A DNA stretch of 64,000 bases from an uncultured Draconibacterium sp. GTDB taxonomy: Bacteria; Bacteroidota; Bacteroidia; Bacteroidales; Prolixibacteraceae. Shown here in pieces: positions 9,534 through 46,580 of the stretch. The stretch is taken from the NCBI RefSeq assembly GCF_913060805.1, contig NZ_CAJXTC010000001.1:62001-126000 (forward strand), in the 5' to 3' direction. The first letter of the stretch is position 1. Every line of letters starts with the position of its first letter. A model generated the notes under the pieces. The model did no database searches. It saw only the letters and a program-made list of their open reading frames with translations, and had not been told where the DNA came from. The position numbers were made by a program, and so were the translations under genes.

Positions 9534-11438
9534 ATGGAAGACTTCAGGCAGATACTTACCCGCTATTGGGGCTACCCCGAATTCCGGCCGCTGCAGCTCG
9601 AAATTATTGAGTCTGTTGCAGCGGGTAACGATACGCTTGGATTAATGCCAACCGGCGGCGGGAAATCCATAACCTTTCAGGTGTATTCGCTGGCACATGA
9701 AGGCATTTGTGTGGTGGTTACACCGCTGATCGCTTTAATGAAAGACCAGGTGGAAAACCTTAACCGGAAAGGGATAAAAGCACTGGCTGTACACAGCGGA
9801 ATGTCGGCACGCGAGATAAAACTAACGCTCGACAACGCTGTTTGGGGCAATTACAAGTTTTTGTATGTATCGCCGGAACGTTTGAATTCTCAGCGTTTTG
9901 TGGAGCGGCTGGAGCAAATGAAAGTTAACTTGTTAACCGTTGACGAAGCGCACTGTATCTCGCAGTGGGGCTACGATTTTCGCCCCAGTTATTTAGGCAT
10001 TATAAAAGTGCGCGAACTGCTGCCCAAAGTAAAAATTTTGGCTTTAACCGCAACCGCTACGCCAAAGGTGGCCGATGATATTCAGGACAAGTTGGGTTTC
10101 AAAGAGAAGAATTTGTTAAAAATGTCTTTTCACCGCGAAAACCTGAGTTACCTGGTGCGGCATGTCGAAAATAAAACCGGGTACCTGCTCGATACGCTGA
10201 AAAAAAGTAAAGGCGCGGGAGTAGTTTATGTTCGCAGCCGAAAAGCCACCCGCGAAATTGCCGATGAATTGAAGCAAAACGGAGTTTCGGCCGATTATTA
10301 CCACGCCGGTTTGGGAAATATTGTGCGAAGCTCGCGGCAAGACGACTGGCTGACCGGAAGAACACGTGTGATTGTTGCTACCAATGCTTTTGGAATGGGA
10401 ATCGACAAAGCCAACGTTCGTTTTGTAATTCATATCGATGCGCCCGATTCGCTGGAAGCCTATTACCAGGAAGCGGGTAGGGCAGGCCGCGATGGGAAAA
10501 AGTCGGCAGCGGTACTATTATATAATAATGCCGATACCACAAAGCTGAAAAAGCACATCTCAACATCGTTTCCTGAAACCGATAATATAAAGCGTATTTA
10601 CGATTCGTTGTGTAACTATTTTCAGGTTGCGGTGGGCCACGGAAAAGGACAGGTGCGCGAGTTTAGTTTACAGGGATTTGCGCAGGCCTACAAGTTTCAG
10701 CAGGCGATGGTTTATAATAGTCTGAAGATTTTGCAGCGCCAGGAATACCTTGAATTTACAGAGCAGGTTGACAGTCCGTCGCGGATCTATTTCCCGATTT
10801 CGCGCGATGAATTGTACAAATTTCAGGTGGCCAACGCCAAGCTCGACGATTTTATAAAGTTGCTTTTGCGCTCGTACACCGGTCTGTTTAGCGGTTATGT
10901 GTCGGTTGATGAAGAGCTGCTTTCGAAACGTTCAGGGCTCAATCGCGATCAGGTGTACAATTACCTAAAACACCTGCGCCAGTCGAAAGTGATTGATTAT
11001 GTGCCGAAAAGTCAAACACCATTTATATACTTCACGAAAGAGCGTGTGCACATCGATCGCCTGAAAATATCGAAAGAGAATTACGATCTGCGGAAAAAGG
11101 ACTACACCGAAAAAATTGAGTCGGTAATTCATTATGCCACCGATTCGGCTACTTGCCGCAGCCAGATTCTACTTCAATATTTTGGCGAAAGCGATGCAGC
11201 GCCTTGTGGCACCTGCGATATTTGTAAAGCCAAACAGGCATTTGCACTCAGCGATTACGAATTTGGCACGGTTAGTAAACGGGTGCAAAAATTGTTGGCT
11301 GATCCTTGCACGTATGAAAATCTCTTGTTCAAACTCCAGGGCGATCAACAAAAAATGCGCGAAATAGTAAAGTGGCTGGTCGATAACAAAAAAATAATCT
11401 ACCGCGTTGATAACTTGCTGGAGTGGAGGGAGTCGTAA
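9534..11438 (+). CDS. recQ: ATP-dependent DNA helicase RecQ
   Basis: A 634-residue superfamily 2 helicase that unwinds DNA 3' to 5' in recombination and replication repair. Visible motifs are Walker A MPTGGGKS, the DEAH box in DEAHCISQWGYDFRP, TATATPKV, GMGIDKANVRFVIH and the QEAGRAGRDG arginine-finger motif. The RQC zinc-binding region includes CRSQILLQYFGE with CGTCDIC (about residues 545-570), followed by a winged helix. No HRDC domain is present; the last 60 residues are a short divergent tail. It is divergent from guaB with a 136-base gap. Confidence 0.97.
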   Translation: MEDFRQILTRYWGYPEFRPLQLEIIESVAAGNDTLGLMPTGGGKSITFQVYSLAHEGICVVVTPLIALMKDQVENLNRKGIKALAVHSGMSAREIKLTLDNAVWGNYKFLYVSPERLNSQRFVERLEQMKVNLLTVDEAHCISQWGYDFRPSYLGIIKVRELLPKVKILALTATATPKVADDIQDKLGFKEKNLLKMSFHRENLSYLVRHVENKTGYLLDTLKKSKGAGVVYVRSRKATREIADELKQNGVSADYYHAGLGNIVRSSRQDDWLTGRTRVIVATNAFGMGIDKANVRFVIHIDAPDSLEAYYQEAGRAGRDGKKSAAVLLYNNADTTKLKKHISTSFPETDNIKRIYDSLCNYFQVAVGHGKGQVREFSLQGFAQAYKFQQAMVYNSLKILQRQEYLEFTEQVDSPSRIYFPISRDELYKFQVANAKLDDFIKLLLRSYTGLFSGYVSVDEELLSKRSGLNRDQVYNYLKHLRQSKVIDYVPKSQTPFIYFTKERVHIDRLKISKENYDLRKKDYTEKIESVIHYATDSATCRSQILLQYFGESDAAPCGTCDICKAKQAFALSDYEFGTVSKRVQKLLADPCTYENLLFKLQGDQQKMREIVKWLVDNKKIIYRVDNLLEWRES

Positions 11439-11680
11439 GTTTAAAGGCAAAAGTTTCAAGGCAAAAGGCAAAAGGCAAAAGGCAAAAGTTGAGGACGGTT
11501 TAACCGGACGAAATCCCGGCCGAAGCGTCGGGAACAAAAGTTGCAGTATCCAGTCCCAGTTCTCAGTCGGCAGTTTTACAGTTTAGCAATTTTTCAATTT
11601 TACAATCTTTCCCGAAAAAGCTCAGTTCCCAACAGCAGTCTGCGGCCAACTTCTGACTTCAATCTTCGAGCTTCCAACTC
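11439..11680. repeat. Intergenic word repeats, GGCAAAAG run and a CCCGACGC palindrome
   Basis: Directly after recQ the unit GGCAAAA repeats about five times (11443-11485). Next comes a hairpin word CCCGGCCGAAGCGTCGGG (11514-11531) that recurs in similar form at 46548-46567, then CAGTATCCAG-type words, then a segment 11559-11605 whose reverse complement closely matches 41393-41430. The last part resembles 42755-42795. No coding potential is visible. Confidence 0.55.
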
Positions 11681-22848: not shown

Positions 22849-23122
22849 AATTTGTCTGACTTATTAATTCAATTGGCTTGTTGAAAATAAGAATTGTTTG
22901 GCTGGAATAAAAGGATTATGGGAAGAATGTGAAGGCAAAAGGCAAAAGTAAAAAGGCAAAAGTATTTGCGAGCCACGAGTTGCCGGAGAAGCAATCTCGA
23001 AAGGTACAGATTTATGCAATGCTGTTTTTATGGCCCGAGTGACCAATGAATAATTGTAACATTTAAGCGATAAAAACGTGAAAGCATATGTCGCGGAAGT
23101 GTAAATCGTAATTGATTTTTAA

Positions 23123-38044: not shown

Positions 38045-39091
38045 TTACAGCTTTAGTTCTTCCAGCAATTCAATGTAGCGTTCAATCCCCGCGATAATTT
38101 CACTTTTGTGAATGTATTCGTCGGCAGTGTGAGATCGTGCCGAATCACCAGGACCCATTTTAACAGATAGAAAAGGAATAATAGCCTGGTCGGAAGTGGT
38201 TGGAGAACCGTATGTATTTATTCCTTTTTCCTTTACCAATTTTGCAAACGGGTGATGTGACGAAATACCCGATGAGTTTAATCGAACAGATCGTGGTTTA
38301 ACTTCCGATTCGATGTGTTGACCGATAATTTCAGCGGCTTCTTTGTTGGTGTAATGTTCGTTTGTACGCACATCAACCACAAAATGACAAAGGTCGGGAA
38401 CAACGTTGTGCTGTGTGCCGGCCTCAATTTGTGTAACCGAAAGTTTTACTTTTCCGAGAACATCTGAAACTTTTTCGAACTCAAAGTTGCGCAGCTTTTC
38501 GATGTCATCCATCGCTTTGTACAATGCATTTTCGCCTTCTTCACGTGCCGCGTGACCAGATTTTCCGTGGGCATAACAATCCAACACCAGCAAGCCTTTT
38601 TCGGCTATGGCTAGTTCCATCTTTGTGGGCTCGCCGATTATGGCAAAATCGATAGGTGATATCTCAGGTATTACGATTTCCATTCCGCGTCGTCCCGAAA
38701 TTTCTTCTTCGGCAGTTGCAGCATAAACCAGGTTGTAAGGGAGGTCTTCGCGTTCGTAAAAATGCACAAAGGTTGCCAGAAGCGAAACCAGCGGACCACC
38801 GGCATCGTTGCTCCCCAACCCAAATAATACATCGCCTTCTTCAATGGGCGAAAACGGATCTTTGGTGTAGCCTTTCGCCGGACGAACTGTATCGATATGC
38901 GAGTCGAGCAGAATGGTTGGCTTTTCTTCCGAATAATATTTATTATACGCCCAGGTGTTATTGTCCTTGGTTTTATATGTTATACCTTCCTTCTCGAGAA
39001 AAGCACGCATTACAGCGGCTGCATTTTCTTCCTCTTTACTAAACGACTGCGTAGCGATCAGCGTTTTTAACAGTTCGATGTATTTCTCCAT
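38045..39091 (-). CDS. M20 family ArgE/DapE-type deacylase
   Basis: A 348-residue zinc hydrolase. Metal-binding motifs are LLDSHIDTVRPAKGY (His, about residue 65), GLGSNDAGGPLVSLLA (Asp, about 93-108) and the catalytic EEE in AATAEEEISGRRGME (about 125-140). C-terminal GPGDSARSHTADEYI holds the last histidine ligand. The SNDAGG sequence and length fit the Bacteroidota group used for removing the acyl group from N-acyl-ornithine or N-acyl-citrulline in arginine synthesis. Function as ArgE is inferred; no other arg genes are adjacent. Confidence 0.85.
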   Translation of the reverse strand: MEKYIELLKTLIATQSFSKEEENAAAVMRAFLEKEGITYKTKDNNTWAYNKYYSEEKPTILLDSHIDTVRPAKGYTKDPFSPIEEGDVLFGLGSNDAGGPLVSLLATFVHFYEREDLPYNLVYAATAEEEISGRRGMEIVIPEISPIDFAIIGEPTKMELAIAEKGLLVLDCYAHGKSGHAAREEGENALYKAMDDIEKLRNFEFEKVSDVLGKVKLSVTQIEAGTQHNVVPDLCHFVVDVRTNEHYTNKEAAEIIGQHIESEVKPRSVRLNSSGISSHHPFAKLVKEKGINTYGSPTTSDQAIIPFLSVKMGPGDSARSHTADEYIHKSEIIAGIERYIELLEELKL

Positions 39092-39225
39092 AGTTTACTT
39101 GTTGCAACGCTGCAAAAGTGGGAAAAAAAACAGAAATTCTGACTTTGTGTGTAGTTGAAACATTTTATCAATTTAAGAAAGTTATGGTTTACAGTCGGAA
39201 ACAGTTACGTGGATTATTTCCCCCG

Positions 39226-39499
39226 TTTTTTGCGCTAATGCCCTAAGGGGCTCAAGATGTGCCCCCATATTTTTGCTTTGCGCCCCAAGGGGATCATGAT
39301 GTGCCCCCAGGGGCGCGGCTTTCGAAAACAGGGGCACGTTTCACGCCCCCGTGTGATTGTTTTGAGAAAACAGGGGCACGCTTTGCGCCCCAAGGGGATT
39401 GCACTTCGAAAACGGGGGATCATCGTGTGCCCCTCGGGGCGAGGCTTGTACAGACAGGGGATTATTACGTGCCCCTGGGGGATGATTCTTCGCCCCTGG
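39226..39499. repeat. 21/42-base tandem array of GGGG-N10-GCCCC boxes
   Basis: Seven boxes of exactly GGGG-10 bases-GCCCC occur at 39247, 39289, 39331, 39373, 39415, 39457 and 39478. The first six are exactly 42 bases apart; extra GGGG at 39310, 39394, 39436 fill a 21-base register. GC content is well above the surrounding genome. The 10-base spacers vary while the boxes stay fixed. Three reading frames stay open across it, as expected from a period that is a multiple of three, so those open frames are not evidence of a gene. It lies in the divergent gap between the M20 and M48 genes, ending about 70 bases before the M48 start. Confidence 0.85.
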
Positions 39500-39568
39500 C
39501 TTTTTTGATACACGGAAAACCTTAATCTTATGTTATATTTGTGCCTCACAAATTGAAACAAAGCAGTT

Positions 39569-40807
39569 ATGCACGAAATACTTTTCTGGATCATTATCGG
39601 AATTCTTGTTGTTGATTTTATCTTCGAAAAATACCTGTCGTACCTGAATACAACGACCATGAGCGACACTATTCCCGAGGAAGTGAAAGGTATTTACGAC
39701 GAAGAAAAATACAAAAAGCAGCAGGCCTACCAGCGCGAAAATCATCGTTTCGGAATTTTAACCAGCAGCTTTAGCATGGTAATTACTTTAGCTATGTTTC
39801 TGTTTTATGGTTTTGCACTGGTAAATGGCTGGGCGTGGAGTTTTACCGGAAATGCCATTCTTGCAGCGCTTATTTTTTTCGGAATCATCATGTTTGCTTC
39901 CGATATTATAAATATCCCTTTCGAAATTTACGACACTTTTAAAATTGAGGAGAAATACGGTTTTAACAAAACCACACCCAAAATATTTGTTCTTGACAAG
40001 GTGAAAGGCTGGCTGGTTAGCGCACTAATCGGTGGTGGTTTGCTGGCACTGATTATTTTTATCTATCAGTTAACCGGTGAGATGTTCTGGATTTATGCCT
40101 GGCTTGTAGTTTCGGCGTTTTCCATTTTTATGGCCATGTTTTATTCCAACCTGATTGTGCCGCTGTTTAATAAACAAACACCGCTTGAAGAGGGCGAATT
40201 GCGCGATGCAATAAGTGCTTTTGCGCAGAAAGTAGGATTTAAACTGGATAACATTTTTGTAATCGACGGATCAAAACGATCTACAAAAGCCAATGCATAT
40301 TTTACCGGTTTGGGAGCAAAAAAACGAATCGTACTTTACGATACTTTGATAAATGATCTGAATACCGAAGAGCTGGTAGCTGTTTTGGCGCACGAAATAG
40401 GTCACAACAAAAAGAAACACGTGGTGCAGGGATTGTTGATTGGTTTGGTACAAACGGCTATTGTTTTGTTTGTTTTTGGTTTGCTTATCGACAGTCCGGT
40501 TTTAAGTGCCGCTCTTGGAGTTGAAGAACCTAATTTTCATATCGGTATGGTGGCTTTTGGTGTGTTATATTCGCCCATTTCGTTTTTTACCGGTATTTTT
40601 ATGAATATCCTCTCGCGGAAAAACGAATACCAGGCTGACCGTTTTGCTGCCGAAAACTATAAACCGGAGGCGCTGGCATCGGCATTAAAAAAGCTGTCGA
40701 TCAATAACCTGAGTAATTTAACACCACATAAAACCTTTGTGTTCTTTCATTACTCGCACCCAACTTTACTGCAGCGTTTGGCGTTTTTAAAGTCATTTGA
40801 AAAATAA
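39569..40807 (+). CDS. M48 family metallopeptidase (Ste24/CAAX-type)
   Basis: A 412-residue integral membrane protease. The N-terminal Peptidase_M48_N region has several helices and the FEIYDTFKIEEKYGFNKTTP motif (about 115-133). The zinc site is HEIGHNKKKH (about 273-282) and the third ligand is in NEYQADRFAAE (about 352). It belongs to the Ste24 group, which cleaves misfolded or prenylated-like substrates at membranes in eukaryotes; in bacteria a quality-control role is likely. It begins about 70 bases downstream of the GC-box array. Confidence 0.93.
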   Translation: MHEILFWIIIGILVVDFIFEKYLSYLNTTTMSDTIPEEVKGIYDEEKYKKQQAYQRENHRFGILTSSFSMVITLAMFLFYGFALVNGWAWSFTGNAILAALIFFGIIMFASDIINIPFEIYDTFKIEEKYGFNKTTPKIFVLDKVKGWLVSALIGGGLLALIIFIYQLTGEMFWIYAWLVVSAFSIFMAMFYSNLIVPLFNKQTPLEEGELRDAISAFAQKVGFKLDNIFVIDGSKRSTKANAYFTGLGAKKRIVLYDTLINDLNTEELVAVLAHEIGHNKKKHVVQGLLIGLVQTAIVLFVFGLLIDSPVLSAALGVEEPNFHIGMVAFGVLYSPISFFTGIFMNILSRKNEYQADRFAAENYKPEALASALKKLSINNLSNLTPHKTFVFFHYSHPTLLQRLAFLKSFEK

Positions 40808-46326: not shown

Positions 46327-46580
46327 TTTTTAGCTGCGAGCGGTTAACTGCTAGCTACGAGTTACGAGTTACGAGCCACTAGCTTCGAGAATCCAATATC
46401 AAGGCAAAAGTAAAAAGGCAAAAGTGATTCCTGTGTTGAGTTGGGAGTTACCTGATATGAGTTGCCAGTTGCGAGTATCTAGCATCGAGAATCCAGTATC
46501 CAATATCCAGTTGAGCGAAGCGAATTGAAAATCGGCAGCAGCCAAATCCCGACCGGAAGCGTCGGGGCATCCCGAAACAA
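46327..46580. repeat. Intergenic word repeats (ACGAGTT, AATCCAGTATCC, GGCAAAAG, CCCGACGC)
   Basis: About 250 bases without a gene. ACGAGTT words repeat three times (about 46356-46377), GGCAAAAG at about 46402-46425, ATCCAGTATCC words at about 46488-46512 and CCCGACC-GGAAGC-GTCGGGG (46548-46567), which is the same word as at 11514-11531. Every word here has relatives in the other intergenic gaps of this window. Confidence 0.5.

Follow-up and report, generated by a model that had tools for sequence, protein, structure and literature searches.

Plasmid iterons and other phased operator arrays place binding sites one or two helical turns apart, with the proteins bound to them aligned on one face of the DNA. 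In Neisseria, the dRS3 and NIME sequences have inverted ends and variable filling and are arrayed between genes; the dRS3 are 20-bp repeats separated by longer elements, not units in a contiguous 21-bp phase. Some REP sequences adjoin the gene of a dedicated protein, the RAYT, and many others are orphans. Accounts of REP, BIME and REPIN sequences present them as dispersed palindromic repeats (PMC3116915, PMC3733652), and a GTAG or CGTC tag of REP is named in the title of PMC3733652. The BrickBuilt MITE of Porphyromonas gingivalis is reported in the abstract of PMC4596501 as an intergenic tandem-repeat element with 19 copies in one strain, in which a 23-nt repeat of one sequence, without spacers, lies in leader/tail units with small inverted ends.

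The window analysed here, a stretch of 64,000 nucleotides from an uncultured Draconibacterium sp., carries an array of 21-bp units with GGGG-N10-GCCCC boxes between two genes. Among described elements BrickBuilt comes nearest to it, with a Bacteroidota host, an intergenic position and tandem repeats in common. However, its 21-bp units have variable filling where BrickBuilt has a uniform 23-nt repeat, and the abstract of PMC4596501 names neither a linked protein gene nor a family of different boxes. Unlike REP sequences with their RAYTs, the present arrays consist of head-to-tail units at two-turn phase with a palindrome that varies by module, i.e., by combination of a gene and its array, and the linked proteins are not recognised as transposases. 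The Neisseria elements differ in that they are not known to have a small-protein gene, and the iterons in that here no replication gene was recognised, many sequence families occur per genome and the contigs are of chromosomal size. The array belongs to a larger class of palindromic arrays in helical phase that has apparently not been described before; some members form modules with small-protein genes, and a literature search of open papers returned no account of such arrays. The class suggests an undescribed kind of protein-DNA system.

The array upstream of the M48 gene

The array comprises 12 contiguous units of 21 bp at 39247–39498 on the plus strand, in an order common to the copy on contig C27 of the same genome. 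Exact GGGG-N10-GCCCC boxes begin at 39247, 39289, 39331, 39373, 39415, 39457 and 39478. TTTTT replaces the 5′ box in unit 39268, the 3′ box is replaced by AAAACA, AAAACG or CAGACA in units 39310, 39394 and 39436, and unit 39352 is without either box. On the left, a degenerate edge at 39220–39246 (plus strand) carries CCCCCG, TTTTTT and GCCC in the 21-bp register and aligns with other copies; half-boxes CCCCC and GCCC occupy the 42 bp upstream of the array. Across each unit junction the sequence forms the palindrome CCCC-NN-GGGG, which recurs every 21 bp. The seven boxes stand exactly where the preliminary description placed them, as do its additional GGGG at 39310, 39394 and 39436 and GCCCC at 39282. 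The box pattern matched 10 times in the window when both strands were counted, three boxes being counted twice, whereas 100 dinucleotide shuffles of the window averaged 0.27 matches and never exceeded 4; the array is far beyond chance.

The site lies between divergent genes, an M20 peptidase gene at 38045–39091 on the minus strand (PF01546, E = 6.6e-19) and an M48 (CAAX prenyl protease-like) membrane protease gene at 39569–40807 on the plus strand (PF16491/PF01435; PF01435, E = 1.5e-37), both of which we regard as neighbours only. The right flank and M48 upstream region span 39499–39568 (plus strand), and the distance from the end of the last box (39496) to the M48 ATG (39569) is 72 bases, in agreement with the distance of about 70 bases given earlier. 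Judged by the M48 gene (98%), the organism is close to Draconibacterium sediminis. Note that the arrays yield open frames on both strands, of 83–144 aa over this one, that could be mistaken for genes.

Dispersal of the element and the M48 gap

The preliminary description had proposed a search for the box pattern in this genome and its relatives, and this search yielded a second copy in the same genome (G000:C27:950-1214, with the same unit order) and eight loci in the genus. A DNA match to the window element, hereafter family 1, was found in 15 of the 37 genomes of the genus (Draconibacterium/Maribellus), and a pair of boxes 42 bp apart in 13 of the 37 (reversed control, 0). At the family level the search matched 14 of 140 genomes, one of them outside the genus (G420), with the reversed control giving one match in another genome. 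A box pair spaced by 21 bp was found in one of 295 genomes of the order, namely the window's own (the genus contributes two of the 295). The eight loci were obtained by sorting 20 family-1 elements by their flanks, by eye. Across 164 element pairs from different loci, unit order agreed with a mean z of 2.47, with 43% of the pairs at p < 0.01, and the mean z was positive in all 28 locus pairs (lowest, 0.51). Since unit order is common to non-orthologous loci, whole elements were copied and subsequently diverged. The ordered element, of approximately 265 bp or about 12 units of 21 bp, is dispersed in the genus, and the window array is one of its copies.

The gap upstream of the M48 gene was cut out and read at 30 loci, and boxes within 700 bp upstream of the gene were counted. 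Seven boxes each were present in the window's genome (G000), G030 and G009, one in G012, whose array is contracted, and none at the remaining 26 loci. The G030 array is longer than that of G000 by exactly one 21-bp unit. Three close relatives (G013, G024 and G007) have the same neighbour across a gap without an array, G005 has a different array with AACAGG boxes every 20–21 bp, G014 has, by eye, a 42-bp repeat, and many other box-less loci have a different upstream gene. A special tie of the array to the M48 gene is thus not supported: the same ordered element occurs at many loci, three close relatives are array-free and one has a different array. The G005 array (L025:2815-3090) consists of AACAGG/CCTGTT boxes in two inverted halves, and this array family has matches in 21 of the 37 genus genomes, and one at G000:C4:7258-7411.

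Divergence of boxes and spacers

At the M48 locus, the boxes differed at 1/75, 1/63 and 0/72 positions in three pairs (0–1.6%), against 12–23% in the spacers. Between G000 and G030, 1 of 75 box sites and 26 of 132 spacer sites had changed (Fisher p = 5.7e-5). This contrast is free of search bias, as the M48 locus, alone among the loci, was found through its protein and not through the boxes. For 26 orthologous pairs from five loci taken together, divergence was 3.8% in boxes versus 28–30% in spacers, a comparison that is biased because the other loci were found by box-dependent searches. These counts exclude units of less than 21 nt as well as box positions that lack a box base, and the unit alignments with G030_c are doubtful (box divergence 5–21%, spacers 51–72%). 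The family-1 boxes are under constraint while the spacers drift. The preliminary description had held that box and two-turn spacing are kept and the filling is not, and the comparison of rates that it proposed, run here at the M48 locus, came out in its favour and against a neutral minisatellite.

At unit positions 5–14, divergence was even, with no three-base pattern as read from the table, which speaks against coding. A protein-coding heptad repeat was rejected, given no codon periodicity in family 1 and other arrays with a period of 41, which is not divisible by three.

Two-turn arrays in related genomes

A self-match scan at lags of 12–90 was run over 1.6 Mb of G013, 0.8 Mb of G034 and the window (2.46 Mb; clusters above 3000 bp were dropped). 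It found 47 intergenic periodic arrays, and those printed were mostly unrelated in sequence. The best lag was 21, 41, 42, 61, 63, 82 or 84, all multiples of 20.3–21 bp, in 36 of the 47 (binomial 2e-23, with ten of 79 lags allowed and the lag set chosen after the first G013 scan); in the data outside the lag choice, i.e., G034 and the window, 16 of 21 were phased. The phased share was 32/34 at a self-match of at least 0.55, 15/15 at 0.65 or above and 11/11 at 0.70 or above. When each sequence was shuffled once by mononucleotides within blocks of 100 bases, a total of 3 clusters resulted. Clusters inside ORFs of the actual sequence had a phased lag in 8 of 33 cases. Whole-turn spacing, by which helically phased binding arrays are recognised, thus characterises 36 of the 47 arrays, and the earlier remark that 21 bases make two turns of B-DNA gains from the recurrence of two-turn phasing across unrelated array families. 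In 365 kb around M48 from 21 named loci, mostly Prolixibacteraceae, the phased share was 3 of 13 periodic clusters, and in 59 other Bacteroidota loci (981 kb) it was 8 of 29, under the same length limit for clusters; the two-turn rule weakens with distance from these genomes.

The column consensus was palindromic at p ≤ 0.05 in 19 of the 35 arrays tested, the lag-61 array being left out. In a leave-one-out comparison of five G013/G034 array pairs, changes fell on 53 of 494 conserved, 50 of 332 middle and 69 of 274 variable columns, or on 37/393, 35/238 and 26/143, respectively, without pair 389674, whose flanks do not align. This contrast is weaker than that of family 1. Note that the AT-rich 903752 cluster is outside this sum (2/24 vs. 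4/12) but among the 36. Large gaps between paired arrays corresponded to whole units (42 and 82 bp). A young 41-bp array, G013:C1:857761-858165, with 96% self-match, has two units more than G034:C1:1863531. Phased arrays were somewhat commoner between convergent genes (12/36 vs. 70/440 gaps, p = 0.019).

Gene families adjoining the arrays

In this genome the CCCC-NN-GGGG array type adjoins a gene for a protein of 129 aa on contig C27, on its 3′ side, and it does so also in relatives; the copy before M48 is an orphan. The C27 protein belongs to a family of 106–129 aa with 17 matches in seven of eight genomes. A phased array was located 3′ of the gene at 14 of the 17 loci, from a 15-bp overlap to 241 bp beyond the match end; the exceptions were the contracted G012 locus, L347 (array 1.2 kb off) and L352. 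When the seven orthologues of locus b are counted once, 9 of 11 loci have the array, and some of the others may be mutual orthologues. As a general background, a phased array was present within 450 bp of 66 of 1916 ORFs. The reading frame is interrupted at some loci of the family.

The palindromes at these loci include CCCC-NN-GGGG, TTACC-NN-GGTAA, GTACC-NN-GGTAC and CAACC-TT-GGTTG as well as GATATCC-type, TTCCC..GGGAA, ATCTT..AAGAT and AAAACCACTTT-type sequences. By eye, close proteins have close boxes in two cases, L346 with L348 (TTACC/GGTAA and GTACC/GGTAC) and L347 with L353 (ATCTT..AGAT). Perfect dyads in six arrays of the family lie mostly, not always, at multiples of 21. The protein family was present in 13 of the 15 genus genomes with family-1 DNA versus 8 of the 22 without it (p = 0.003, uncorrected for phylogeny), and in G020 a family gene (C5:113091) lies beside a family-1 match (C5:113661). 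However, G030 has three family-1 arrays with intact boxes and no match to the protein family, and G032 has a 25-base family-1 match without the protein.

A search of the 129-aa protein against Pfam, NCBIfam, PADLOC and PHROGs returned nothing above noise and no recognisable DNA-binding domain, and no match to it was found in plasmids, phages or viral contigs. Sequence matches in the PDB were weak, and no homologues of the module proteins occurred in the 80 named M48 loci.

A DUF6261 gene, whose start lies just before the window, occupies 3–638 on the plus strand (PF19775, E = 1.3e-24). It is followed at 756–1073 by the second phased array of the window, which is unrelated in sequence to the first and has a period of 42 (lags 42 and 84, self-match 0.64) and the palindromic consensus GCTCNTGC..GCGAGAGC (column-permutation p = 0.002). 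This array is on the 3′ side of its gene, whereas the array is 5′ at the other six of the seven DUF6261 loci read; on the 5′ side of the window gene, no array was found in 741 bases before and into the window (best self-match 0.50, lag 12). DUF6261 matches numbered 29 places in six genomes, and an adjacent phased array was present at all seven loci read among these 29, two of the seven being a near-identical duplicate pair. The idea came from three loci in G013 and the window locus, and three loci in G034, G030 and G003 formed a separate test, in which the array lay upstream and began at a distance of 8 to 324 bp from the first in-frame ATG. Genes of both DUF6261 and the 106–129 aa family are thus linked to phased arrays.

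Within the order, 15 of 149 genomes have DUF6261, with 79 matches between them, of which 18 are in G129 and 15 in G118, genomes that belong to other families of the order. An AlphaFold model of the window DUF6261 protein, made without an alignment, was mostly helical with a mean pLDDT of 47.8. No DUF6261 match was found in plasmids or viral contigs, and among open papers DUF6261 is mentioned in a study of Streptococcus oralis. DUF6261 and the 129-aa family are not detectably related (profile comparison, probability 0.6%). In a further family of about 250 aa (SDRQDYDAC..), a phased array lies 3′ in three cases, G013:C1:709069, G034:C1:1695228 and G034:C1:1722485, a count that is not unbiased since the family was found through its arrays; its weak NCBIfam PQLLE match (E = 7e-5) is below the cut-off. 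At 26 of the 36 phased arrays, no such gene was recognised among the flanking ORFs, some of which were scanned against Pfam.

Interpretation of the arrays

The arrays are most likely rows of putative dyad binding sites on one helix face for an oligomerising protein, and the candidate binder is probably the module's own protein. Of the preliminary interpretation, the constraint on box and spacing and the two-turn phasing remain, while no special tie to M48 is supported. That paralogues and DUF6261 genes lie beside arrays of other sequence at the same two-turn phase supports the reading of gene and array as a module. Several observations count against it: the array side differs between families, being 3′ for the 129-aa family and 5′ at six of seven DUF6261 loci; the boxes of G030 are intact without the protein family; the 129-aa protein shows no DNA-binding domain; most phased arrays have no recognised partner gene; and the two protein families are not detectably related. 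The lower phased shares in the other loci and inside ORFs, the good folding of the strand as RNA, the weaker column contrast outside family 1 and the dyads at distances other than multiples of 21 also count against it. Weighing these, we regard it as close to an even call that the window array derives from a module of gene and array, as an orphan copy, and serves as a protein-binding row.

In the mechanism that we propose, the units of each array would act as operator-like dyads, all exposed on the same face of the helix, and a dimeric or oligomerising DNA-binding protein may assemble on them cooperatively as a nucleoprotein filament. The filament protein would most likely be encoded within the module itself or by a paralogue of its gene, with paralogues differing in the dyad they read. 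For this protein, orphan arrays such as that before M48 would be either sites bound in trans or relics. The roles considered for such a filament were topological insulation, autoregulation, chromosome organisation and spread of the module.

More broadly, and with considerable doubt, the Bacteroidota may possess an undescribed multi-family system in which small proteins (DUF6261, those of 106–129 aa, perhaps the SDRQDYDAC type and one of 248 aa) would each have their own palindrome and polymerise on its two-turn arrays, with dozens of orthogonal modules plus orphans per genome. Such a system, if true, would be a bacterial counterpart of satellite DNA and its dedicated binding proteins. An isolated repeat becomes a testable class, with many unrelated sequences, one helical rule and specific partner genes. 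Should the proteins bind the arrays, they would represent a naturally occurring collection of DNA-binding specificities, assign a role to DUF6261 and offer insight into the upkeep of satellite-like intergenic DNA in bacteria.

Alternative explanations

A structured RNA is an unlikely alternative, in which the transcribed array, a 3′ untranslated region in the 129-aa family, would fold into GGGG/CCCC helices arranged as a ladder, to which the small protein would bind. The 3′ position is indeed constant in that family, fold energies beat shuffles on both strands (z of -3.9 and -3.6; reverse strand -4.0), and RNAalifold predicted nested helices joining the TTTTTG and CGAAAA half-units; strong folding of the strands is as expected of GGGG/CCCC arrays. 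The covariation term was unfavourable in both alignments (+1.43 and +1.46), with at least one kept double change in 7 of 69 and 6 of 72 predicted pairs. One-sided changes were counted in 29 of 572 box pairs, 14 of which would keep a G-U pair, and in 29 of 496 junction pairs, whereas both-sided changes numbered 0 in either set; that no box pair changed on both sides speaks for a DNA site over an RNA stem. Moreover, a family-2 stretch folded no better than shuffles (z = -0.89), the DUF6261 arrays lie mostly upstream of the gene, and Rfam gave no match. Together with the two-turn rule, these tests favour the DNA reading.

Dispersal to many loci would also be explained by a miniature mobile element, either a MITE or a BrickBuilt-like element, whose internal repeats are transposase sites, an explanation that we consider rather improbable. 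It draws on the ordered family-1 copies at eight loci, on the presence or absence of the array at the M48 gap among relatives, and on the duplication in G013 of a 1353-bp unit of array plus DUF6261 gene at 95% identity. This unit lies at G013:C1 28553-29904 and 2183468-2184818 in opposite orientation, with the array itself 99% identical. At the borders of this one duplicated unit, neither inverted termini nor a target duplication was seen by eye, and the empty M48 sites are too diverged to place element ends. Boxes constrained in place are unlike those of a dead MITE, no transposase was recognised in the DUF6261 and 129-aa modules, and searches gave nothing in plasmids, phages and viral contigs (for DUF6261, plasmids and viral contigs); the array pattern likewise had no match in viral contigs.

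Neutral minisatellites, with a two-turn unit arising from mutational bias in slippage or template switching, are improbable. Whole units were gained or lost (21 bp between G030 and G000, 42 bp at 1016610 and the contraction in G012), and at least one array, that at G013 857761, is young. Against this stand the contrast of box and spacer in place at M48, the leave-one-out column classes of five arrays (the conserved against the variable columns, also without the pair with misaligned flanks) and the linkage to specific protein genes. The simple decaying minisatellite was rejected, as substitution is unequal between boxes and spacers.

That the arrays are substrates of Y1 transposases, as in REP/RAYT, is very improbable. 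One Y1_Tnp gene, G034:1621474, has a 42-bp array at a distance of about 70 bp, but a 21/42-bp array was present at only this one of 10 Y1_Tnp loci in three genomes and three others had a different repeat of 50–51 bp, a result that weakly refutes RAYT substrates. Among 231 family-1 units, the REP tags GTAG/CTAC and CGTC/GACG were found in 1 and 7, respectively. The 50–51 bp repeats, at L328, L334 and L335 of G000, contain small palindromes, e.g., a GTCCCGTAGGGAC-like one in L328, and are possibly a RAYT repeat of their own kind.

Intrinsically curved DNA with a mechanical role and no specific protein is the least probable explanation and was rejected for family 1. Predicted curvature, computed from wedge parameters, exceeded dinucleotide shuffles over the 36 arrays (mean z = 1.15; z > 2 in 10), but family 1 is not curved: z was -0.2 for the window array and ranged from -0.6 to 0.13 for the four further family-1 arrays that were scored.

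Other repeats in the window

Degenerate tandem repeats of heptanucleotides, with periods of 7/14 bp, occur in the window at 1117–1152, 11437–11488, 22932–22964 and 46356–46375. The first of these begins about 45 bp past the 756–1073 array, and the class is separate from that of the two-turn arrays.
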